From positions 1 through 33,264 of the forward strand of contig JAAGZO010000073.1 of NCBI GenBank assembly GCA_024206195.1: a stretch of DNA of 33,264 nucleotides, written 5' to 3'. Source of the stretch: a bacterium. GTDB taxonomy: Archaea; Nanoarchaeota; Nanoarchaeia; Woesearchaeales; UBA10216. Below the pieces are notes generated by a model. The model was not told where the DNA came from. It worked only from the letters and a program-made list of their open reading frames with translations, and did not search any database. Below are positions 3,423-29,569 of this stretch, one piece after another. A program made the position numbers and the translations under genes. Each line of letters opens with the position of its first letter. The first letter of the stretch is position 1.

Positions 3423-3767
3423 TTACTCTTTAGGAGTATTATTCCAATCATATGTAGGTGTGGGTGTCGGTGATGGCTTCGGGATTAAGTTCTCGAAGCC
3501 TAGACACTTCAAGACCTTTTTCAATTCCTTCTTTTCACAATCAAACTTGTCCATTCCGTCTTTATCTTTGTACTGAACGCAAAGTAAAATATTGTCCTTA
3601 GTCTTTAGATTTTCTATTGTAACGAACACAGAGTCACCGTAGGTGTCCGCATAAGCCTTGTAAAGAACAACAAGGCATAGTAAGCATAGGGCGATAATCG
3701 AATATAATACAACCTTCTCAATTATACTCACTTTCATGTTTTTAAATAATTCTGTAAACCAGCTCAT
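3423..3767 (-). CDS. Single-pass membrane protein with Pro-rich tail, last gene of the late operon
   Basis: The 114-residue protein has a short N-terminal cytoplasmic-type segment, one strong membrane helix at about residues 17-40, then a soluble region with two pairs of Cys-containing stretches, and a C-terminal PKPSPTPTPT linker. The start overlaps the previous lipoprotein stop by four bases. The position, at the end of the lysis cassette beside a lipoprotein, is compatible with an inner-membrane spanin partner, but the soluble part is not an obvious coiled coil. Function unproven. Confidence 0.65.
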   Translation of the reverse strand: MSWFTELFKNMKVSIIEKVVLYSIIALCLLCLVVLYKAYADTYGDSVFVTIENLKTKDNILLCVQYKDKDGMDKFDCEKKELKKVLKCLGFENLIPKPSPTPTPTYDWNNTPKE

Positions 3768-4030
3768 TCGTCTTTTTCCTTTCTCGCTTTCAAGACTGCT
3801 TTACACTTTTCAAGTTTGTCTGCAACTTGGTCATCCCAATAGCCTTTATCAAAACAATATTTTCCGGCCAATATCTTTTTAACAAAAGCGCAATCGCAAG
3901 CCTCAAAGTCAAAGTCGATGTCTTTATCCGTATCTATTATCTTTTTGTTTGAAGGCAGATATTCAATCCTCTTTCCTGAGCAAGATGTCAAGCTCAGACA
4001 GAGTATCATCAAAATCGTCAGCGATACCAT
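3764..4030 (-). CDS. Small lipoprotein, candidate outer-membrane spanin (Rz1-like)
   Basis: The likely start is the ATG at 4030, eight bases after AAAGGTGA. From there a short signal peptide ends in the lipobox LTSC, with the lipidated Cys at position 17, and a charged mature region of about 70 residues follows. The frame is open further upstream to an ATG at 4090, but that start has no ribosome site and would put 20 polar residues ahead of the signal peptide. Its start lies inside the preceding membrane-protein gene in another frame, the same nesting seen for Rz/Rz1 spanin pairs. A lipoprotein points to a diderm host. It lacks the Pro-rich mature region typical of many o-spanins. Confidence 0.68.
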   Translation of the reverse strand: MVSLTILMILCLSLTSCSGKRIEYLPSNKKIIDTDKDIDFDFEACDCAFVKKILAGKYCFDKGYWDDQVADKLEKCKAVLKARKEKDE

Positions 4031-4202
4031 CAGTATCACCTTTTGACATTTTATTATGCCTTCGCATTCTTCTCTTTTTATAGAGTTCATAAATCCATTT
4101 GCTCCGTTTGTTTTCTGGTGACTGCCTTTTCTTCTCTAATATAAATAAAACTATATTGAGAGTTAAGGTCAATCCCAATCCTATTACATTTGCCCAATCC
4201 AT
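3963..4202 (-). CDS. Membrane protein with basic tail, candidate holin or i-spanin
   Basis: The 79-residue protein has one N-terminal hydrophobic helix (about residues 4-23) followed directly by a very basic stretch of Lys and Arg up to residue 50 and an acidic C-terminal tail. The positive-inside rule would place the tail in the cytoplasm, which fits a small holin better than a spanin. On the other hand the lipoprotein gene starts inside it in another frame, as o-spanin genes do inside i-spanin genes. The start lies just after a GC-rich hairpin. Role in lysis is inferred from context only. Confidence 0.6.
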   Translation of the reverse strand: MDWANVIGLGLTLTLNIVLFILEKKRQSPENKRSKWIYELYKKRRMRRHNKMSKGDTDGIADDFDDTLSELDILLRKED

Positions 4203-5274: not shown

Positions 5275-5559
5275 TTAAAATAAACTTAATATTTTGGATG
5301 CAGCTGTACCGCCACCACCACCAATAGCAAACGCTAAGAAATAATATTTCCATTTCAAATCCTTAAACTTACCTTCCATGATACTGCAGCGCTTTAGCTG
5401 TGCTAACTTGTACGCAGCAATATCCTCTCGCAATTTCCCTATCTCTGCTTTAATCTCATCTCTGTTGTCATCTGACTTGTCGCTTTGTTTCTCAACGGTG
5501 TTTTCAAGACGGTCAATGCGTTTAACAAAAATCTCCGTATATCTTTCAAAATCTGGCAT
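5275..5559 (-). CDS. Coiled-coil protein with C-terminal membrane helix (XhlA-like layout)
   Basis: The start is ATG 5559, which overlaps the cupin stop (TGATG) and has AAGGA nearby; a longer frame to 5607 lies inside the cupin gene. The protein has a long charged heptad-like helix from about residue 5 to 70 and a Gly-rich hydrophobic C-terminal segment. This is the layout of XhlA/haemolysin-type phage lysis proteins, where a coiled coil is anchored by a C-terminal membrane helix and works with a holin. The sequence match is at architecture level only. Confidence 0.65.
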   Translation of the reverse strand: MPDFERYTEIFVKRIDRLENTVEKQSDKSDDNRDEIKAEIGKLREDIAAYKLAQLKRCSIMEGKFKDLKWKYYFLAFAIGGGGGTAASKILSLF

Positions 5560-5948
5560 CAGGGATAATCCTTGCTTGGCGGTATAGTGATTGTAAAATA
5601 AACACAATTGTCCGGAAATGTAGCGCTATGGACAACCGTAGGCTCATTGTAAAACATATCACCAGCACCGTAAGTTTTAGATTCACCGTTCTTGTGCAAT
5701 ATCAGCGAACCCCTTTCGATGAACACATACTCTTTCTCTGAATGAGAATGACTAGGAAACTCACAGCCTTTTGAGTTCCACCATTTGTCAATCCTAAAAC
5801 TATCCCCATCAAAATAAGGCCAACATCTACACTTCCCTTTTTTCATCGGGTACTCGGTGTAATTCCCGTTGTCAGAAAAACTACCCGATGGCTTTGGAAA
5901 GTTGATAGTCTTGGCTATCTCTAAAGCTTCCTTTAGTTCATCATCCAT
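5559..5948 (-). CDS. Cupin-domain protein
   Basis: A single-domain cupin. Motif 1 is intact: H-x-H-x3-E (His67, His69, Glu73) with Gly80, and motif 2 includes GAGD at 94-97 and His107. These residues normally hold a metal ion such as iron, manganese or zinc. Substrate and reaction cannot be told from sequence; cupins include dioxygenases, isomerases and non-enzymatic binding proteins. It lies between the repeat-rich virion protein and the lysis genes in the late operon, so it is expressed late and could act on the cell surface, on sugars of the virion, or as a structural part. Confidence 0.8.
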   Translation of the reverse strand: MDDELKEALEIAKTINFPKPSGSFSDNGNYTEYPMKKGKCRCWPYFDGDSFRIDKWWNSKGCEFPSHSHSEKEYVFIERGSLILHKNGESKTYGAGDMFYNEPTVVHSATFPDNCVYFTITIPPSKDYP

Positions 5949-5955
5949 GATTCAC

Positions 5956-7512
5956 CTACCTAGTAACTGTATAAGTGTATACGCAGTCATCTTCAGGGTC
6001 GGCATCAAATTCAAAGTCAATAAAACCAGCGCCCGGTGTAGCACCAACTCCAACAACCGTTCCTGTTCCGGAGTCAAGTATTGCCCATGTGACATCATCG
6101 GTAGCAAGTACGCCAGACACTACTTTTCTGTTCGTAGCTCCATAAGCAGCATCGGAAGATGTAATTTGAGCTGTTGAGCCAGTATCATGAGCTGTTGCGT
6201 CTGCATCATGGGTATTAAACTTAGCTTTCCAATCGTTTAACCTAGTTACACATAAAGCTAAGGTTGTAGGTGCTGCTGTACTTGTAAGCGAAGCATCTCC
6301 ACCTTCCCCGGCTTCGTGATAAAGCCAAAGAGCTGCAAGTTCCGCATCACCTTCATGAGCGTCATAACTTGTAAGCAATTCAGTTGTTAGCGCAATCAAG
6401 GTTGTCAGGTTTGTAGCATCGGCAGCTACAATTGCTCTAGCTGTGTCAGCCCCGGCAGGATGTTCACCAGCTCCAACGGCTGCATTGGCAGCTGTGACCT
6501 GATGAGTAGTTCCGGTGTCATGTGAAGTAGCGTCAGCATCATGAGCATTAAGCTTGGTTTTAAAATCATTGAGTCTGGTAATACACTCAGCGTAAGTTGT
6601 CGGTGCAGCGGTTGATGCAAGTGAAGTATTCCCGCCTTCCTGTGCTTCATGGAATAACCATGCGCTTGCTAATTCTGCGTCACCTTCATGAGCATCGAAG
6701 TCAGTTAAGAGTTCAGTCACTAAGGTGATGAGTGTCGCAAGGTCTGTAGCATCGGCAGCACTGGTTGTGTTTGTAGCATCGGGTGCAGCTGGATGTTCGC
6801 CTGTACCCACAGCCCCGTCAGCCGTTGCTTCCTGAAACTGCGAACCGGCTGTATGCGGAATGGCATCAGCGTCATGAGTGTTAAACTTTGCTTTAAGGTC
6901 ATTAACCCTAGTAATACACTCAGCCAAGTTTGCCGGTGCAACTGCGCTGGCTAGTGAAGCATCCCCACCTTCAGCTACATGGTGATAAGCCAATGCCCCG
7001 CCACCTTCGGAATCACCTTCATGAGCATCGTAATCTGTAAGAAGTTCGGTAATCAAAGTAATCAAGGTAGCAAGGTTTGTTGCGTCTGCTGCAGCAGTTG
7101 TATTAACTGCATCAGCCGAAGCATGTTCAGCTGTACTTCCACAATGAGAATTGTAAGTAGCCTTGAATGCATTTGCTAAAGCAATCGCAGTAGCAAGACC
7201 CGTTCCACCGTCAGCGCAATGAGCGTTGTACATCGCTTTGCAATCATTCGCCAAAGTAATTGCGCTAGATATTCCAGCTCCGCCACTGGCAATGTGAGTA
7301 TCGAAATCCAACTTACATTCGTTAGCAAGAGTTATTGCCGAACTTAATCCTGCAATATTGTTTTCCCTGCTACTGGTTACAACTGCGGAAGCAGCCACCG
7401 TTGCATATCCGGCTGTAGCAACAAGCGTAAGAATCTCAGACTGCAGGGTGCTTATTTCCGCAGTCGTTAAGAACCTTGCAAGAGTTCTTTGCAAGTCATT
7501 TGAAAATGCCAT
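5956..7512 (-). CDS. His/Asp-rich helical repeat virion-associated protein, 518 aa
   Basis: The ATG has GGGAGG upstream. Residues 1-54 form a helical head. Residues 55-129 are three 25-residue repeats (pattern G-x-x-x-AI-x-LAN-x-x-K-x-x-Y/F-x-x-HC), and residues 141-473 are three 111-residue repeats with no gap between copies. Each contains a TLIxLxTELLTxYDAHEGD helix, an H-E-A-x-EGG stretch and a CxTRLNDxKxKxNxHDADATxH helix. The last 45 residues are a separate beta-type tail. The same repeat module occurs twice inside the large tail protein, so this is probably a virion appendage or a partner of that protein. The regular His and Asp suggest metal binding, but this is inference. Confidence 0.8.
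   Translation of the reverse strand: MAFSNDLQRTLARFLTTAEISTLQSEILTLVATAGYATVAASAVVTSSRENNIAGLSSAITLANECKLDFDTHIASGGAGISSAITLANDCKAMYNAHCADGGTGLATAIALANAFKATYNSHCGSTAEHASADAVNTTAAADATNLATLITLITELLTDYDAHEGDSEGGGALAYHHVAEGGDASLASAVAPANLAECITRVNDLKAKFNTHDADAIPHTAGSQFQEATADGAVGTGEHPAAPDATNTTSAADATDLATLITLVTELLTDFDAHEGDAELASAWLFHEAQEGGNTSLASTAAPTTYAECITRLNDFKTKLNAHDADATSHDTGTTHQVTAANAAVGAGEHPAGADTARAIVAADATNLTTLIALTTELLTSYDAHEGDAELAALWLYHEAGEGGDASLTSTAAPTTLALCVTRLNDWKAKFNTHDADATAHDTGSTAQITSSDAAYGATNRKVVSGVLATDDVTWAILDSGTGTVVGVGATPGAGFIDFEFDADPEDDCVYTYTVTR
6094..7092 (-). repeat. Three 111-residue (333-base) protein-coding repeats
   Basis: Repeat borders are 6760-7092, 6427-6759 and 6094-6426 on the minus strand. 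The anchor (AADAT) falls at residues 141, 252 and 363, exactly 111 apart. The protein copies are clearly related, while the DNA differs at many third positions, so the duplication is old or the protein is under selection. Confidence 0.85.
7126..7350 (-). repeat. Three 25-residue (75-base) protein-coding repeats
   Basis: The LAN anchor falls at residues 62, 87 and 112 of the 518-residue protein. Each unit is a predicted helix with a conserved Y/F-x-x-H ending. This short unit corresponds to the first quarter of the 120-residue insert found in the large tail protein. Confidence 0.82.
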
Positions 7513-7524
7513 AGTAACCTCCCT

Positions 7525-7809
7525 TTATTCATCCTCTAAAGTTCCAGCCAGACCTAGCTGTGAGAGCAATCCATTATCCATAATATACTGCAAGGCTGTT
7601 TCTTTTTGACTAGCAGAGTAAGCGGGTACATCTATAACTATTCTGTCGATTTCCATTCCACCGACACTGCCTTTTAAGGCCACTCCTGTTGCTTCGTTAT
7701 ACAAAGATATATGCGCCTTGCCGACCTCATCGAAATGTATAGCCTTAACTTTTACGTCTGTAAAATTTATAGGACTATAAATCGAATCTAAAACAATTTT
7801 CTTTCCCAT
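7525..7809 (-). CDS. Small virion-region protein, 94 aa
   Basis: GGAGG precedes the ATG. A beta-rich first half (alternating polar and hydrophobic residues, with VKVKAIHFDEVGKAHI) is followed by a PAYSAS loop and a C-terminal helix with a YIMDNGLLSQLGLAG ending. The next gene upstream (76 aa) has the same order of elements and may be a paralogue. Proteins of this size and shape are common in the appendage region of metagenomic podoviruses. I cannot assign a function. Confidence 0.72.
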   Translation of the reverse strand: MGKKIVLDSIYSPINFTDVKVKAIHFDEVGKAHISLYNEATGVALKGSVGGMEIDRIVIDVPAYSASQKETALQYIMDNGLLSQLGLAGTLEDE

Positions 7810-7831
7810 CTTGTCCTCCTGATTATTTAAA

Positions 7832-8062
7832 TTAATCTACCGAGCCAGCTACTTTTCCAGAGCTTATCAAATAAGCCTCTGCTTCCGCTATTTTAGAATT
7901 TGCATAACTTGGCAGATTGAAACTAAAGGTCTTGGTAAACGTAGTATCCCCGCCCATTTCGTGGGCGTAAATAGTGATTTCACCGTTTCTGTTTATCACT
8001 ATCTCGGAAACTACTATCTGCTCTGTTTCTTCTACGTGCGGTGTCGTTAAAGTAATACTCAT
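7832..8062 (-). CDS. Small virion-region protein, 76 aa, possible paralogue of its neighbour
   Basis: GAGG precedes the ATG. The sequence is a compact beta-type domain (VVSEIVINRNGEITIYAHEM) followed by LPSYANSK and a short helix ending in SSGKVAG. The order, spacing and the PxYxxS and xxSGxxAG elements resemble the 94-residue protein next to it. It sits between a fibre-like protein and that neighbour, so a small virion or tail-tip component is plausible. Function not recognised. Confidence 0.7.
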   Translation of the reverse strand: MSITLTTPHVEETEQIVVSEIVINRNGEITIYAHEMGGDTTFTKTFSFNLPSYANSKIAEAEAYLISSGKVAGSVD

Positions 8063-15652: not shown

Positions 15653-18600
15653 CTATGCTGCCCTCTTATCGGGGCTTATTTTTGCTATTCCCTTTTTAAT
15701 TCCTGCGTGTATGGTTATGGAGTTCAGCGTATATCCCTCGCCTTCACTTTCCAAATCCTCAAACTCCAAACTCATAGCTTCACATTTAGGGTATTTAGGT
15801 TTTATTTCTATTTCATAAACTCTGTCAGTAGTTCCACCGTAAGTACCATCGCCATAAGTGCCATCACCAAAAGTACCAGTATCCATGATAGTCGCAGCAT
15901 CGTAGTAAACAACATTTTGCCTAGATTCATCAAAGTCATAATAGCAAGTAATTTTAAGCTTATGGTCAGCTCTAAAATCTCCATGAACTATTAATCTGTA
16001 CAATCTTTGATACCCACCAATTTGCGCTAACTTCAGCCATCCAGTTCTCGCTTTAAGCCTTATGTCTTTTCCGCCATCTTGGTAAGTGTCTGATGATTCT
16101 TTAAAAACATTACCATCAGATTTAAGATACACATAATTATTATTCCATTTGATTGCGTCTACGGCTGAAGTGTTGTCGAATATTCCCCACTCACCGTAAA
16201 AATAATCGTATACAAGAGTAATGCTTTGGTCAGTCAAGAATCTAACTTGGTTGACATCTTCCATTAAAGTCTCAGACAAAATATTATAGTTATTGTATTT
16301 CTCTACCATTGCCCCAATATAGTTGACTGACAAATTTCTGCTAAGCATGTAGAACCCTTTGGCTGTCATGAATATCAATCCAGACGGAGTAAAAACCATC
16401 GACTTAGGTTGAGTACATCCAATATCAGTGGTTACTTCGACATCATTCGTAAAAGTAGAATTTATTCCGTAATTATTCGCAATGTCACCAGTGCGATAAT
16501 AAATATTATCTCTTTTAAATATTATTAAGTTCCCATCCATCTCTGTAAACTGCGTTACCTCTCCGCCTTTAGGCGTGATGTTTTTCTGTAGTTCCTCAGC
16601 AAACGCAACAGCCTCGCCAACAACAGTCGTTTTAGCTGGCCACAGAATATCGTTCTGGTCTATCAACATCGCCCTGTTTCTGTATATTGTTGCAAGCTTA
16701 CATGCAGGCGGTGCGACATTTTCAAAGATACCGCCAGTAACGTATATATAATTATTTCCTGTAATGTCGGCATCGGCATCATCGTCTGATATGCTGATTG
16801 TAGACGCAGACGTAGAATTATATGTAGGTGATGCAATAGACGTTACCCTGTAGTAAACAGTTCCGGTAGCAACCTCAGTTCTATACACTTCACAAACCAC
16901 ATTGTTTTTCTGAGTGAATGGATTGGTTGCTATGGTCAGGGTTGTTCTTCCGCCCGACAATGTTATCGAAGATGCAACACTTGGCGCTGACCTATGGATG
17001 TTGCCTTGCCTGTCTGTCCATTTCCAAACAGCCTTGTAGTAATAAAGCCCGGTTGCCATGTCACCTGAAACCGCTGAAGCTCCGCCATGAGTTACGAGGT
17101 TTTTTCCACCTACTCCATGACAAGTAGAGTCGTTTGAATGACCATTGTATTTTACAAGAAAATCGTTGAGTCTAGTTATGCACTCATCAGGAGTAGTCGG
17201 GGCTACAACGGATGTTGGGGAATGCCCCGTTGCCTCTTGCGCTGCATGGAACGCCCACCCTGCGCCTAGTTCCGCATCGTCATCATGTAAGTCGTAGTCA
17301 ACTAAAAGTTCAGTTACCAAAGCAACCAGAGTTGTATAATCGGTAGCATCGGGAGCTGCAATAGTGTTCACAGCGTCTGCCCCTGCGGTGTGGTCTGCAG
17401 CGTCTGCACAGTGAGCATTGTAGTTTGCTTTGCATTCGTTGGCTAAAAGCATAGCGTCAACCAAGTCCGGGTCAACAAGACTGGTTATCTTTGGCTTAAC
17501 ATGAAAGCCATGTTCGACCATAGTTCCACCATCATAACTTGCTAACTGGCCACCGACAATCAGTGAGTTTTTATTTATCTCACAATTGTTGAAAACATAA
17601 TCGCTAGAAAAATCCAGACTTGCCTTTACTATCCCCTTGACTGTGAATTGAAAAGAACTCTCAGTTAGAAGCCTCGAAACCTTCGGAAGCACCGCTTGGT
17701 ATGTATTGCCAACTTCACAATACCTCGGAAGTGCTTTATCTGTATTGTAGTACCCACCTAACATAGAGATTAACTTTCCGTCTATGTTGGTAGTAAACAT
17801 TACCACGCTTGTTTGATATTGAGAACCAACGCCATGACAAGTTGCATCGGCATCATGGCCATTGTATTTTAATTTCAAATCATTGAGCCTTGTCATGCAT
17901 TCGTCTAAGTCAGTCGGGGAAACAACTGATGCCGGAGTGTGGTCGCCTGCTTCCTGTGCAGCGTGGAATGCCCAACCAGCGCCCAATTCAGCGTCATCGT
18001 CATGTGCATCGTATGCTGCTAACAAATCGTCTACCAAGACTATTAACGATGCTAAATCGTAAGCATCAACAGAATTTACAAGGTTAGTTCCATCAGCTCC
18101 TGTCGTATGGTCTGATGTATCAGCACAATGAGAATTATATAAAGCCTTTAAGTCGTTTGCTAAGTTGCAAGCATTCTCTAAAGAATGTGAAACTCCAAAC
18201 AGAATGTAGCTCGGCTGCAAAGTGAAATTATGGGATAAGGTTAAGTAGTCAATCCCGTTTTCAGTAAACGCCTTTGCACCTAAACCGCAATTGTACCTTA
18301 TTATAGGAGCGCTTGCAGCTGCAATTTCAAGAGATGCATCTTTGCTAACAGCCTGAGTTTTTATCCAGTTCAAAGCAGCTGACGTTGAATCGTACATCTC
18401 ATAAAAGAATCTTGCCCTGTTGTCTGAAACCATTGTCGCTGTTATGTTTACCGCACTATTCACCGCATCGGAATCAATTGTAGTCGGTGCTAATATTTGG
18501 ACTAAGTTCTCATTGTAGCAAGCAGCCCTTATGCCTGTAGCAGCTAAATGCCATCCTATCCAAACATCATCGTTATTATTATTTGTTATTACCGTTAAAC

Positions 18601-19417
18601 TTTTAACTGTCGTTTCAGCTATTGTAGCAGTAGCATCATGAGAGCCACTTGATAGAATTTTAAGAATTTTTATATTCCCGGCATTATCAGGATATGCAAT
18701 ATAAAAAGTTCCAGTGCCAGTATCAACATCCAACATGAAGTCTGTAGTTCTTGCGTCTGACACTATGGTTACGGGAGTGCCTATTACGGATGGATTACTT
18801 GATGACATCTTTGCATATCTTATTCTTGCAGCTGACCTGTATACAACAAAAAGGTTTCCGCCTGATGCAGCACACTTTGGCATGTCACCTGATGAATCTA
18901 TCTCGTAATCGTTTACTAAAATAGTATTCGATTCGGAGTCAATCACGCTTACCCTTATACCGCCCCTTGAATCCTGCCATGCGTGTAATTCTATTCCGTC
19001 AGTCACCGCCATGTCTATTTCTGATTGCTCGGCATCGTTGGCGATTATTTTGTCGTATCCAATTGTTACCGGGGTAAACTTACCCCTCTCTACCCATAAG
19101 TCCTTAGTTGACGAATATGTGTAATACTTGGAAGCATCGAACAACAATAACTCGGTGTCGTTGTTAAACCCCATTAAAGCTTCACCATCGGTTATATCTG
19201 TTTCATTGTTGTTAATATCATACATCAATGTCGAAAGAGCAACATATCCGTATCTCTTAGAAACAAACCCACCGTAAGCTGCATCACTTGCCGGACTCTT
19301 AGATAAGACTCCATTCTCAAGAGCAAGCAATTTATCTACAAGCTTGCCCGGTGTCTTGGTATCAAGACCTTGAGCAAACGGCATAGCCATCGTATGTTCT
19401 GATAGTTTTCCTGCCAT
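15653..19417 (-). CDS. Large tail (stabilisation/hub-type) protein carrying two His-rich inserts
   Basis: The N-terminus has a PFAQGLDTKTPGKLVDKLLAL segment followed shortly by SKRYGYVALS. This GLDTKT...GKLL.LEN...KR.GY pattern marks a family of large podovirus tail proteins that I associate with tail tube/stabilisation function (P22 gp10 as model). The C-terminal half has WPAKTTVVGE and long beta repeats of propeller type. Two inserts of 120 residues (DNA 17825-18184 and 17108-17467), unlike the rest, are copies of the repeat in the 518-residue protein. The start is taken at ATG 19417; the frame is open to TTG 19432, which overlaps the upstream gene and has no ribosome site. Without the inserts the length would be about 1010 aa. 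Confidence 0.72.
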   Translation of the reverse strand: MAGKLSEHTMAMPFAQGLDTKTPGKLVDKLLALENGVLSKSPASDAAYGGFVSKRYGYVALSTLMYDINNNETDITDGEALMGFNNDTELLLFDASKYYTYSSTKDLWVERGKFTPVTIGYDKIIANDAEQSEIDMAVTDGIELHAWQDSRGGIRVSVIDSESNTILVNDYEIDSSGDMPKCAASGGNLFVVYRSAARIRYAKMSSSNPSVIGTPVTIVSDARTTDFMLDVDTGTGTFYIAYPDNAGNIKILKILSSGSHDATATIAETTVKSLTVITNNNNDDVWIGWHLAATGIRAACYNENLVQILAPTTIDSDAVNSAVNITATMVSDNRARFFYEMYDSTSAALNWIKTQAVSKDASLEIAAASAPIIRYNCGLGAKAFTENGIDYLTLSHNFTLQPSYILFGVSHSLENACNLANDLKALYNSHCADTSDHTTGADGTNLVNSVDAYDLASLIVLVDDLLAAYDAHDDDAELGAGWAFHAAQEAGDHTPASVVSPTDLDECMTRLNDLKLKYNGHDADATCHGVGSQYQTSVVMFTTNIDGKLISMLGGYYNTDKALPRYCEVGNTYQAVLPKVSRLLTESSFQFTVKGIVKASLDFSSDYVFNNCEINKNSLIVGGQLASYDGGTMVEHGFHVKPKITSLVDPDLVDAMLLANECKANYNAHCADAADHTAGADAVNTIAAPDATDYTTLVALVTELLVDYDLHDDDAELGAGWAFHAAQEATGHSPTSVVAPTTPDECITRLNDFLVKYNGHSNDSTCHGVGGKNLVTHGGASAVSGDMATGLYYYKAVWKWTDRQGNIHRSAPSVASSITLSGGRTTLTIATNPFTQKNNVVCEVYRTEVATGTVYYRVTSIASPTYNSTSASTISISDDDADADITGNNYIYVTGGIFENVAPPACKLATIYRNRAMLIDQNDILWPAKTTVVGEAVAFAEELQKNITPKGGEVTQFTEMDGNLIIFKRDNIYYRTGDIANNYGINSTFTNDVEVTTDIGCTQPKSMVFTPSGLIFMTAKGFYMLSRNLSVNYIGAMVEKYNNYNILSETLMEDVNQVRFLTDQSITLVYDYFYGEWGIFDNTSAVDAIKWNNNYVYLKSDGNVFKESSDTYQDGGKDIRLKARTGWLKLAQIGGYQRLYRLIVHGDFRADHKLKITCYYDFDESRQNVVYYDAATIMDTGTFGDGTYGDGTYGGTTDRVYEIEIKPKYPKCEAMSLEFEDLESEGEGYTLNSITIHAGIKKGIAKISPDKRAA
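17108..17467 (-). repeat. His-rich 120-residue module, copy 2 in the tail protein
   Basis: It aligns without gaps to copy 1 (239 residues apart). Shared elements: LAN-x-x-K-x-x-YN-x-HCAD near the start, DH(T)xGAD, a TLVALVTELLVDYD helix, DDDAELGAGWAFHAAQE, ECxTRLND and YNGHxxDxTCHGVG at the end. Confidence 0.85.
17825..18184 (-). repeat. His-rich 120-residue module, copy 1 in the tail protein
   Basis: It has the same elements as copy 2 and the repeats of the protein at 5956-7512. The sequence on both sides of the insert is beta-type, whereas the module is helical, which marks it as a domain inserted in a loop. Confidence 0.85.
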
Positions 19418-19421
19418 ATCT

Positions 19422-20678
19422 TTATAACTCAAAGGCTACAAGTTTTGTTTTCTTTACCAGCGCTGCACATGCTGCGTTGGTAGTCCTAAGCCTGACCTTG
19501 TAATTATAAGTTCCAGCTCCTATTATATCTACATGCTGCAAACTACTGGAAGGTGTCCACATCGGGGCGTAATGTAAGAGATACCCTATATAGCTGCCAT
19601 CTCTAGTAAATGCCACTATAGCACTCCCTGTACTTAGAGAGCCAACGTGACCGCCATTTGAATCAGCGTCAGACATGCACATCAGCATTACCGGCCTTCC
19701 GGTTGTAGTTATTGTTATGCTTAAATTCGTTACATCAACAAAAGATGTGCTGCTTGTCTGAAAGTTTCCGCTTGAAGATGACACTTGCTGCCCTAAAGCA
19801 GAAAGTTTTGGCCTAGTTACATTAGCATTTAATATCTTTGCAGTTGTAACATTGTCATCAAGAATTTTTGCTGTAGTCACAGCGTCATCTTTTATCTTTG
19901 CTGTTTCAACGGCATCGGTTGCGATGCTGTCTGCTTCCGCCTGACCCCATGTAGCGTTACCACTTCCGTCTGTTTTTAGAATATACTTGTTTGTAGGTGA
20001 TGCAGCATACTGTAGTGATGTTGAAAGCGTCAGGTCGTCAACTGACGGGCTTCTATCTGCAGCAAGATTTCCTGATGTGTCTATTGTCACAAGAGAAGTG
20101 CTTGCTGGTAAAGCTGCAGGAAAGATTATATCGTAATCAGCTGCTAGGCTTGACGGTGATTTAAGCTTTACATATGCAGTAATCCCGGCTGATGCTTCTC
20201 TAAGCCAGATGTCACCGGTGTTTAGTTTCATCGGAACATTTGTGACGTTGTTTGAATAGAGCCAAAGAGTAGTCGTACCGCCAACGTAAGTAACTGCTGC
20301 ATTTCCTGAAGGCAATCCACCGATAGAACCAGCTCCTGCGTTTACCGAACCAGATGACGTAATCTGCACTGAGTTTGAACTTGCATCTCTGTAGTAAAGC
20401 TCACCACTTAAACTATATATAGTCCTTGCATCGGTTAATCCGGAAAGCTGAGTTGCCAAGCTCAAGCCCTTCATATCTATTGCAAGCTGGTTTGAATAAT
20501 CAAGAGAAGCATTCATGTTTATTGCTGCCGGAGTAATCTTCTTTCCGTAACCTGTCGTATGGTCATGTGCGTCTACCGTACTAAGTGCAGTGTTAAGCAT
20601 TGTAGCCCAAGTCGGACTTGGCTTTACGCTTACCTCCGGTAAAGTCAAACTCATGTATGATGTAACTGTGTCAGCCAT
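19422..20678 (-). CDS. Fibre-like tail protein, 418 aa
   Basis: AAGGAG precedes the ATG. The N-terminal 50 residues (LTLPEVSVKPSPTWATMLN, then VDAHDHTTG and ITPAAINMN) match an attachment domain that I recall from fibre or collar proteins of metagenomic podoviruses, in which a Trp-Ala-x-x-LN and a HDHxxG motif recur. A beta-type shaft follows, and near residues 245-295 a tandem V-x-T-A-K-I repeat (DDAVTTAKILDDNVTTAKIL) of the kind common in trimeric fibres. A C-terminal domain of about 110 residues could bind a receptor. It precedes the large tail protein. Confidence 0.7.
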   Translation of the reverse strand: MADTVTSYMSLTLPEVSVKPSPTWATMLNTALSTVDAHDHTTGYGKKITPAAINMNASLDYSNQLAIDMKGLSLATQLSGLTDARTIYSLSGELYYRDASSNSVQITSSGSVNAGAGSIGGLPSGNAAVTYVGGTTTLWLYSNNVTNVPMKLNTGDIWLREASAGITAYVKLKSPSSLAADYDIIFPAALPASTSLVTIDTSGNLAADRSPSVDDLTLSTSLQYAASPTNKYILKTDGSGNATWGQAEADSIATDAVETAKIKDDAVTTAKILDDNVTTAKILNANVTRPKLSALGQQVSSSSGNFQTSSTSFVDVTNLSITITTTGRPVMLMCMSDADSNGGHVGSLSTGSAIVAFTRDGSYIGYLLHYAPMWTPSSSLQHVDIIGAGTYNYKVRLRTTNAACAALVKKTKLVAFEL

Positions 20679-20690
20679 TTTAATCTCCTT

Positions 20691-21461
20691 TTAAAAAACC
20701 CATAAATCAACAGTAACCGATGTTGATATTGGATTGTCGTATATTTTATGGATTGAAACACTCTCCATTGTAGTCGCACTACCATTCACAGTAACCGCAC
20801 CAGCAACATCGTTATTTTGTCCTCTTATGTCTATGTAATCATCGACTGCAAGCTTGATAATAGAGGATGAACCGAGAACATTCCAGTTTAAGCTATTAAA
20901 GTGAATTTCCGACCCTCTGGTAACAAGAGCGCCATTTTTGTAAATCCTTCCTTCGCCTGTGGCGTTAGCAGCACTTCCACCTAACGGGATAGAGTATGAA
21001 ACATTGTAGTATCCAGCAACCGGAGCTGTAAACTTCCAAGCTGCCCCGACAGTGACGGCATCATGTGAATCATATATTTCATGCTGATAATCTATTATCT
21101 CTGTTGCGCCAGCTGCGACAGATGTATTAGCAGACACAGCTCCCTCTACCCAATAGGATGCAAACACAGCCTCAGAGTTTGGCTGAGAGTATGCGTTCAG
21201 TGTTATTGTTTTGTCGCTTTGAGTTCCAAGCTCAGTTTTTATAACAGCATTCGTATTTTTCTTAACAACAATTATTCCATTCGGAACTCTTTCTAATTTA
21301 TGATAGATGGTGCAGGGGCTTCCGAAAGTAATCGACTGATTTTCAAATAGAACTCCATTAAGGATTTCTTTGTCAATAATTTGCTTTAGCGACCTTTTGG
21401 TAAATCCCTGCACTCTATCTAAGTTTTCATCGCCACTTACTATTGTTTCTAATTCTTTCAT
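20691..21461 (-). CDS. Fibre protein with C1q/TNF-like C-terminal domain, 256 aa
   Basis: Residues about 50-75 hold a HKLERVPNGIIVVKKNT element common in phage fibres. The second half has the strand pattern of a C1q/TNF-like jelly roll: WKFTAPVAGYYNVSYSI, then RIYKNGALVTRGSE, and a SSIIKLAVDDYIDIRG strand pair. Such domains often form the receptor-binding tip of trimeric fibres. It overlaps the adaptor gene end by four bases, so it belongs to the same operon. Assignment rests on pattern, not on a search. Confidence 0.65.
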   Translation of the reverse strand: MKELETIVSGDENLDRVQGFTKRSLKQIIDKEILNGVLFENQSITFGSPCTIYHKLERVPNGIIVVKKNTNAVIKTELGTQSDKTITLNAYSQPNSEAVFASYWVEGAVSANTSVAAGATEIIDYQHEIYDSHDAVTVGAAWKFTAPVAGYYNVSYSIPLGGSAANATGEGRIYKNGALVTRGSEIHFNSLNWNVLGSSSIIKLAVDDYIDIRGQNNDVAGAVTVNGSATTMESVSIHKIYDNPISTSVTVDLWVF

Positions 21462-22183
21462 TTTCTTCTTTTAAGTAAATTATCCCATGCCTGTCTTGAA
21501 ACAGTCGTTTCAAAGTATCCGGCAGTATCAACTATCTTTTCAGGATTTGCTCTATCTCTCATCGCAGCCTTCTCATCCAACTCTCCTGCAAGTTTTGCAA
21601 ACAGACTTTGTAAAACAGTGCTGTCGCTTTCCTGTCTATCTTTAACTAGGATTGATGCGTAAAGAACTGCGTAATCTTCATATCCATTGTATCCATCAAC
21701 GGTGTCAGAGCCTGTAGAAAGGTCGCTGTGATACGGCCTCCATACGACTCTCATTTTATCCGTACTGTTATCAGGTGGGTAATCTAATATTAGTTTTTTA
21801 TCTTCTAGTTGGTATCGGACAGAATATTTATTATAAGAAATAACTCCCGTTCTATCGTTGTCATCCCATCTGTCCATAGGAAACCAAACATCAGTCGTAG
21901 CCGAACCAGTTCCAGTGTCAAGCATGTCAACACCGTCAAGAATATAAAAAGTCGTAATGAGTGTATCGAGGTCATATTCCGCTTGTCCAGAAACAAGGCT
22001 TATCGTAGTTCTCTGTCTTAAATATGTTTCACCGAAAGCCCTGTAAAGCTTATCTCTTAATTCAGCAAGACCCTGATTTAAAAAATCATCGAGGTAAGTA
22101 TCCTCAATGTTAGGGTCGTTGTTCGTGTCAGTTCTATTCCTGACCTTAGTTCTCAATGTTGTTAGTGTAACCGTTTTAGCCAT
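21458..22183 (-). CDS. Head-tail adaptor (connector) protein, 241 aa
   Basis: AGGAG precedes the ATG. The N-terminus (TLRTKVRNRTD, then a YLDDFLNQGLAELRDKL helix) and the middle YDLDTLITTFYILDGV and LxLDYPPDNSTDKMRVVWRPYHxDL segments follow the pattern of the podovirus gp4/tail-tubular-A-like adaptors that sit under the portal. A helix with YEDYAVLYASILVKDR near residue 170 is also typical. Its place two genes downstream of the capsid protein agrees. Confidence 0.72.
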   Translation of the reverse strand: MAKTVTLTTLRTKVRNRTDTNNDPNIEDTYLDDFLNQGLAELRDKLYRAFGETYLRQRTTISLVSGQAEYDLDTLITTFYILDGVDMLDTGTGSATTDVWFPMDRWDDNDRTGVISYNKYSVRYQLEDKKLILDYPPDNSTDKMRVVWRPYHSDLSTGSDTVDGYNGYEDYAVLYASILVKDRQESDSTVLQSLFAKLAGELDEKAAMRDRANPEKIVDTAGYFETTVSRQAWDNLLKRRK

Positions 22184-29142: not shown

Positions 29143-29340
29143 CTAGTTTGGCATCAAAAGATTTACGCCAAGTTTCACTTTGGCCTTTTTCTTCTTCTTC
29201 TTTTTCTTGATTTTAACCTTCACCTTCTTTTTCCCAAAGCCAAGCTCATCAGCAAGACTTAACTTGCCTTCCGTCTGGCGCTTGATTTTTAACATCGGGT
29301 CTAAAAGTGAGGCTATCGCTTTCTTCTTTTTATTTCCCAT
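29143..29340 (-). CDS. Lys-rich small protein, 65 aa
   Basis: The start is taken at ATG 29340, after GGGGAG and two bases past the previous stop; a longer frame to 29442 runs through the zinc-ribbon gene and is unlikely. The first 40 residues are ordinary (NKKKKAIASLLDPMLKIKRQ, a LADELGFG turn). The end has a long Lys run, K-V-K-V-K-I then eight Lys in a row. Such tails may bind DNA or RNA non-specifically; together with the neighbouring zinc ribbons it could act in packaging or in host take-over. No known family. Confidence 0.65.
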   Translation of the reverse strand: MGNKKKKAIASLLDPMLKIKRQTEGKLSLADELGFGKKKVKVKIKKKKKKKKAKVKLGVNLLMPN

Positions 29341-29341
29341 A

Positions 29342-29569
29342 TTATTTATCTCCCCAAAATTTAATTGTCCGGCCACAGTTAAGACACTTAAATACGCTCT
29401 TGCCAATGCCATCGTCATCGGTGATGACATCCTGCAGCTCAAGTAAATACTTCTTACAGTGACTGCACTTCGCCATTTTCCGGCTCTTGTGCAATTCCTT
29501 CAAATCCCTCTTGTTCTGCCTTTCCTCAAAATTCTTCAAAGCTTCAGATGGCTCAAACTTCAGTTCCAT
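29342..29569 (-). CDS. Zinc-ribbon protein, 75 aa
   Basis: The C-terminal part is a four-Cys zinc ribbon, KCSHCKK (Cys35, Cys38) and FKCLNCGR (Cys62, Cys65), preceded by a basic helix. The spacing of 23 residues between pairs is normal for such ribbons. ATG 29569 lies two bases beyond the previous stop with a GGGG upstream. A nucleic-acid-binding or regulatory role is typical of the shape but not demonstrated. Confidence 0.7.
   Translation of the reverse strand: MELKFEPSEALKNFEERQNKRDLKELHKSRKMAKCSHCKKYLLELQDVITDDDGIGKSVFKCLNCGRTIKFWGDK

Follow-up and report, generated by a model that had tools for sequence, protein, structure and literature searches.

Among the promiscuous domains known from phage particles, the immunoglobulin (Ig)-like folds have been described best (PubMed Central (PMC) entry PMC9022992). 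These accessory domains, i.e., Big_1/Big_2, I-set and FN3 (Fraser et al. 2006, via PMC9022992), have been added to several classes of virion proteins, and in the YSD1 tail tube one of them is inserted between strands of the host fold (PMC9022992). This review calls their function unclear and presumes an accessory surface role. In addition, phage fibres and spikes are described to bind iron via six histidines with an HxH motif, as in T4 gp37 and the R-pyocin fibres (PMC6116203, PMC11705849), and phage proteins show domain mosaicism (Smug et al. 2023, PMC10684548). In this work, we have analysed a helical domain with six conserved histidines (hereafter the module), which occurs in two proteins of contig JAAGZO010000073.1 (GCA_024206195.1): p518, the 518-residue protein of the open reading frame (ORF) at 5956-7512 on the reverse strand, and a 1259-residue tail protein at 15653-19432, also on the reverse strand, as are all features of the window given below. 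The window, that is, the whole stretch of 33,264 nt analysed, is a phage genome or a large fragment of one. With a probability of about 0.65, we consider the module a mobile accessory domain of phage structural proteins, which is inserted in frame in loops, is probably metal-bound, and adds exposed surface.

The module resembles the Ig-like domains in being small, in occurring in several classes of virion proteins, and in being absent from relatives of its carriers. On the other hand, its predicted fold is all-helical with six near-invariant histidines, instead of the Ig β-sandwich. Ig-like domains can involve a frameshift, while the module copies of the window lie in frame inside one ORF and need none. 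Its carriers include a head-tail adaptor and a putatively nozzle-like protein, both outside the five Ig-carrier classes given in PMC9022992. With the six-histidine iron fibres, the module shares its place in phage structural proteins, six conserved histidines and possibly a transition metal. However, in those fibres, three chains of a trimer are described to give one HxH each, whereas the module has three histidine pairs on one chain of a helical domain, and its histidines, at positions 18, 25, 60, 73, 109 and 116, form no HxH motif. Like the fragments seen in domain mosaicism (PMC10684548), it is common to otherwise unrelated phage proteins. Overall, shared accessory domains of virion proteins are already known, and the helical six-histidine domain is not found in the libraries, the PDB or the papers searched. 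It represents an all-helical class unrelated to Ig-like folds, which extends from head-tail adaptor to baseplate and can be read against uninterrupted relatives. It thereby offers a well-defined case in which to study what accessory domains do and how they can be added to a phage particle that stays intact. The module is also small and confidently predicted, and its predicted metal binding can be checked on one domain.

Repeats of p518 and the shared module

The first-pass annotation had described p518 as built of three 25-residue and three 111-residue repeats, and had found the same module in the tail protein. The anchors are exact (LAN at 62, 87 and 112; AADAT at 141, 252 and 363), and the repeats are real. 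The self-identity of p518 reaches 38% at lag 111 (156/407) and 26% at lag 222, with the best lag in 500 shuffles of p518 not exceeding 17% (mean of best lags 13.8%), and between the 111-residue units, 65, 69 and 62 of 111 residues are shared. For the 25-residue units, these counts are just 12, 9 and 7 of 25, and since the identity at lag 25 is 13.6% over the whole of p518, not above the shuffles, this period is local and weak. Actually, the two periods reflect one unit rather than two kinds of repeat. The basic unit is a helix of ~20 residues ending in His, plus the subsequent loop, which contains another His; three such helix-His units form a module of ~125 residues. Helix A of the first module is what had been counted as the third "25-residue unit", and the longer period is 111 because consecutive modules share a helix, the last of one being the first of the next.

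By repeat anatomy and module profile, p518 contains two lone helix units (residues 56-80, positions 7273-7347; residues 81-105, 7198-7272). The profile further delimits one full three-helix module (module 1, residues 106-228, 6829-7197) and two modules that have their own helices B and C and reuse a helix: module 2 (residues 236-340, 6493-6807) takes the last helix of module 1, and module 3 (residues 346-450, 6163-6477) that of module 2. The tail protein has full modules at residues 418-543 (site 1, 17807-18181) and 657-782 (site 2, 17099-17464).

This profile was built from 16 of 19 copies, with the window copies left out. It scores p518 at 444 bits and the tail protein at 314 bits, and recovers the three modules plus two lone helices of the former and the two modules of the latter. 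A module-profile search of all ORFs of the window confines the module to these two proteins. None of 1000 composition-matched shuffles of p518 was reported at E <= 100. In direct comparison by BLASTP (filters off), the two proteins match with an E value of 2.6e-63 over the shared stretch. All 20 histidines of p518 lie inside the array and none elsewhere, and those of its modules occupy positions conserved in the family. In the tail protein, 15 histidines fall in the two modules versus 12 in the remaining 1007 residues.

AlphaFold predicts tail-protein module 1 alone with a mean predicted local distance difference test (pLDDT) of 87.8 and a predicted template modelling score (pTM) of 0.85, as helices 9-28, 51-70 and 100-119 with connecting loops of 22 and 29 residues and no strand. 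In the model of p518 (pLDDT 80.3, pTM 0.51), helices run through the array, and DSSP assigns a strand at residues 39-47 (7372-7398) before the array and further strands between 460 and 517 after it. Most structure matches of 60-70 residues span model residues 38-43 to 514-518, and those of ~67 residues span 38-41 to 517-518. The best match aligns 67 residues, more than the 58 covered by the strands after the array, so that the strand at 39-47 should belong to the same predicted sandwich.

Interrupted carriers and uninterrupted relatives

To the array-free part of p518, that is, the strand just described and the remaining knob at residues 452-518 (5956-6159 with the stop codon), there are relatives without any module. 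The profile of the p518 C-terminal part is matched by 27 short proteins, of which 19 were read. Ten of them are a knob with a short turn and no module; among the other nine, several are fragments retaining a module end. We aligned nine module-free knobs (P0247, P0248, P0259 and P0261-P0266; 112-125 residues), where the turn is TTxGGAAAE in eight and TTGGGAALE in P0261. In p518 and its relatives, the array occupies this turn region, after TTS or similar. From alignment and model, p518 is a predicted small β-sandwich interrupted by the module array, and the same sandwich is uninterrupted in the relatives of 112-125 residues.

The tail protein gives the same picture. Among the best 120 of 157 relatives (median 1002 residues), the window's own protein is the only one with modules, and both sites are empty in the other 119. 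Alignment with 40 relatives (21 displayed) places the modules as two insertions with recognisable flanks, the borders of the second varying between 649-778 and 681-782 according to the alignment. In five of 17 long relatives examined (P0167, P0187, P0205, P0212 and P0225), unrelated inserts are found at site 2, near residue 655. Judged from these alignments, site 2 is an insertion hot spot of the tail-protein family, which fits an accessory slot. It also coincides with the module position in a more distant family (P0063), and as the copy tree places the window copies elsewhere, this suggests repeated use of one slot. The tail protein itself has no PHROG or Pfam match. P0063, its distant relative, matches phrog_511 (labelled internal virion protein), and the 1259-residue protein is best described as a putative nozzle-like protein by its relatives.

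The module is carried far beyond these two families. Among the best 120 of 135 relatives of p518, 55 (including p518) match the knob profile at E <= 0.01, and the remaining 65 can be divided into up to 25 groups that have no detectable similarity to one another apart from the module. This number is an upper bound (BLASTP E <= 1e-6, modules masked), and several groups are mostly 43-residue arrays. Thus, on these comparisons there may be up to 26 carrier groups, the knob included. The parts of the carriers outside the module belong to several classes of virion proteins: head-tail adaptor Ad1/Phage_connect_1, Baseplate_J, baseplate wedge (P0102), phrog_1731 of the head class (P0009 and P0057), and phrog_511 as mentioned. 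Single further matches are to tail sheath, head closure Hc3, tail assembly, tail and tail-fibre families, though these may fall within the module. All PHROGs with an assigned function among the carriers are head, connector or tail families, while four have no known function, and many of the 65 non-knob carriers may match no PHROG. By source name, P0002 comes from a Smithella metagenome-assembled genome (MAG) and P0028 from a Synergistota MAG.

In contrast to this breadth in metagenomic proteins (more than 100 carry the module), the search of 50,697 annotated phage records yielded no full module, which marks a blind spot. There, tblastn with a single module at E <= 10 gave nine records with partial matches (E 4-8). 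As a positive control, local tblastn with the low-complexity filter on and a database size of 2.3 billion found the module in the window and in 22/22 loci (L073-L094), the weakest match having E 4.8e-13, while it missed the looser 43-residue class described below. Against the phage records, p518, P0114, P0060, a knob piece and P0077 gave no match by tblastn, and P0098 one weak record (E 0.1). A DNA pattern run on one genome per species (84,980 species) hit six stretches, none a module by profile, a single pattern being a weak test. The search for related loci found none with p518, one contig with the capsid protein and one with the tail protein. In contig L097, whose portal, capsid and tail protein are similar to those of the window, the part examined contains neither a module nor a match to the knob. 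Pfam and NCBIfam hold no family for the module, and the literature search of open-licence papers returned no description of one. Overall, the module seems to belong to largely uncultured phages.

The nearest library entries are phrog_6994 (head fiber protein) and phrog_37030 (unknown function), which share the helix-His unit: residues 249-290 of P0098 are matched at E 6.7e-10, and among 19 module copies eight reach E <= 1, the best at 1.5e-5. The match to phrog_6994 lies in the repeat itself, not in the carrier part, and the PHROG matches span about a single unit (42 and 24 residues), none covering the three-helix six-histidine module.

There is also a looser class, in which the helix-His unit occurs in other spacings with a period of ~43 (e.g., P0111, P0114 and a protein of MW202476.1). 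The last is a 178-residue hypothetical protein (L095, 5824-6360) with three helix-His units, encoded some genes before the tail sheath gene of an annotated environmental phage. In another locus (L047, 152-952 and 1239-2576), a head-tail connector gene and the gene next to it each carry a module. The two modules are 73% identical, and copying between the genes is possible.

The six histidines and the explanations weighed

We have calculated the conservation of the module over 107 copies with less than 85% pairwise identity, taken from 154 that passed the length and E-value cut. Histidine is found at position 109 in 107/107 copies, at 60 in 107/107, at 116 in 106/107, at 73 in 105/106, at 25 in 105/106 and at 18 in 92/96, and Asp at position 63 in 103/107. 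His 109, 60, 116, 73 and 25 are the five most conserved columns of the module, ahead of the hydrophobic core. They form, with His 18, the pairs H18/H25, H60/H73 and H109/H116, spaced H-x6-H, H-x12-H and H-x6-H. Six conserved histidines within an otherwise variable domain point to a transition-metal site. The module is therefore probably a metal-binding unit, as far as conservation can tell.

The accessory-domain reading would work as follows. The module is inserted in frame into loops of structural proteins, between β-strands as far as seen, so that it would protrude and leave the host fold intact; its surface exposure is suggested by this insertion in loops. In the phage of the window, this would have happened at three places, i.e., two in the nozzle-like tail protein and one in the p518 knob, and the latter site would have expanded to an array through shared-helix duplication. 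The six histidines together with D63 would bind one or more transition-metal ions and hold the three helices together. The gain might be exposed surface for accessory adhesion or particle stability, by analogy with the Ig-like domains elsewhere, and we offer this role as a conjecture.

Several observations count against this reading. H18 is replaced in 4/96 copies, and the copy set was assembled by homology and trimmed to near-whole modules, which favours conserved residues. The conserved histidines could instead serve helix capping or a non-metal ligand. Sequence searches found no PDB relative of the module, and fold searches none worth noting. When the knob flanks are aligned, the TT of the p518-like proteins is not placed on the TT of the uninterrupted ones, and because the two are not aligned, the insertion junction of p518 is uncertain by ~10 residues. 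As for the carriers, P0089 is the one among the 120 listed p518 relatives with a precomputed Pfam domain (PF24175), and our own domain scans did not reproduce this SU10-adaptor label. The tail-protein profile (21 relatives) found no solved nozzle in the PDB, its one row at E <= 1 being 9vel_C Gp6.1 (E 0.44).

Among the alternatives, the one that survives best, though we regard it as unlikely, is a metal-free helical spacer, in which the histidines cap helices or form core hydrogen bonds, and the module lengthens or stiffens projections. The small, regular fold of the model would agree with it, as would the spacer-like array of p518 and the carriers that match fibre families. However, histidines occupy all of the five top-conserved columns and rank ahead of the hydrophobic core.

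How the copies are related bears on the two alternatives that follow. The first-pass annotation had proposed a phylogeny of the copies, and our tree (107 rows, 124 columns; 49 of 104 inner branches open) shows that they cluster according to the protein that holds them. Modules 1 and 2 of the tail protein form a sister pair (98/88). Modules 2 and 3 of p518 cluster with a module of the p518-like P0002 (99/84), and module 1 of p518 forms a weak pair with P0065 (82/59). None of the p518 modules joins those of the tail protein in this tree, so the two proteins have had no recent exchange of modules. Elsewhere, the modules of two proteins of G005 are sisters at 100/99, though by identity (61%) they are not mutual single best, and those of two proteins of G013 are 73% identical and mutual best among the 23 copies compared.

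It is clearly improbable that the module is a selfish or neutral domain, which permissive loops would tolerate and recombination would spread, with no function for the phage. This reading draws on the permissive sites, as the unrelated inserts at site 2 of the tail protein illustrate, and on the patchy presence, i.e., none in the other 119 tail-protein relatives listed and none in L097. On the other hand, residues stay near-invariant in copies that are 40-66% identical to a reference copy, which implies purifying selection, and the window copies are 56-69% identical in DNA, so that no recent copying is visible.

Slightly more doubtful still is mutual binding, in which contacts between the modules of p518 and those of the tail protein would dock the former onto the tail. 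The first-pass annotation had offered this as one of two explanations, the other being spread of the module within the genome. One genome does hold the same unit in two structural proteins, with several copies in p518, and in four of 15 other virus records the module is present in two or three proteins. Of 66 viral loci collected by two patterns, 16 contain the module by profile, and the other 50 were dropped. Of the 15 records, however, 11 hold a single copy, two hold 2, one holds 3 and one 4; among the six longer than 35 kb, four hold one. The records may be incomplete, and they are not independent, as G001/G010, G003/G007 and G006/G009 hold near-identical module proteins. With one copy in 11/15 records, mutual binding is not generally needed, and the copies of p518 and the tail protein do not group in the tree; as a general rule, binding through matching domains is thus not supported. 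Spread fares better, since the module is inserted in many structural proteins of other phages, while within the window genome the grouping by protein supports it only in part.

Finally, the idea that the copies are Ala/Asp-rich low-complexity helices alike by composition only, which the annotation had named as what would overturn its claim, is refuted by the shuffles and the placement of the histidines even though Ala, Asp and Thr are abundant in the copies, and filtered tblastn still finds the module in the window and in all of the 22 control loci.

Within the accessory-domain reading, a more specific and speculative picture may be drawn from the analogy to the trimeric fibres. The module might be a single-chain, pseudo-threefold counterpart of their six-histidine iron site, with all three of its helix-His pairs coordinating a single octahedral transition-metal ion, and would then serve as a plug-in metal carrier on many structural proteins of a large set of phages so far uncultured. 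We regard this as rather unlikely. If true, a particle could bear many metal ions, for adhesion via host metal-uptake receptors or for stability.

Gene context of the window

The window encodes RecE- and RecT-like genes, terminase, a capsid protein, an SU10-type adaptor, fibre-like proteins, the tail protein, p518, a cupin and an NlpC/P60 protein. The SU10-type adaptor (21458-22183; Pfam PF24175, E 3e-13) lies upstream of the tail protein and has no module. Since it is encoded, a short-tailed particle is likely for this phage; an adaptor-nozzle tail is described in PMC9509320. Homology and gene order suggest that p518 and the tail protein are present in the virion.

Directly downstream of p518, there is a cupin-domain protein at 5559-5948 (Pfam Cupin_2, E 9.4e-10), possibly a second predicted metal-binding fold adjoining the His-rich module. 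Upstream of p518, two small neighbouring proteins of 94 and 76 residues (7525-8062) are similar by eye, and PHROG and Pfam scans of them gave no match. Small overlapping ORFs at 3764-4202, one with a lipobox-like LTSCSG, resemble what we take to be lysis (spanin) genes. A 256-residue protein at 20691-21461 has a BclA_C match below threshold (E 1.8e-4), and an ORF at 29143-29442, which overlaps another ORF, contains a long Lys/Val run.
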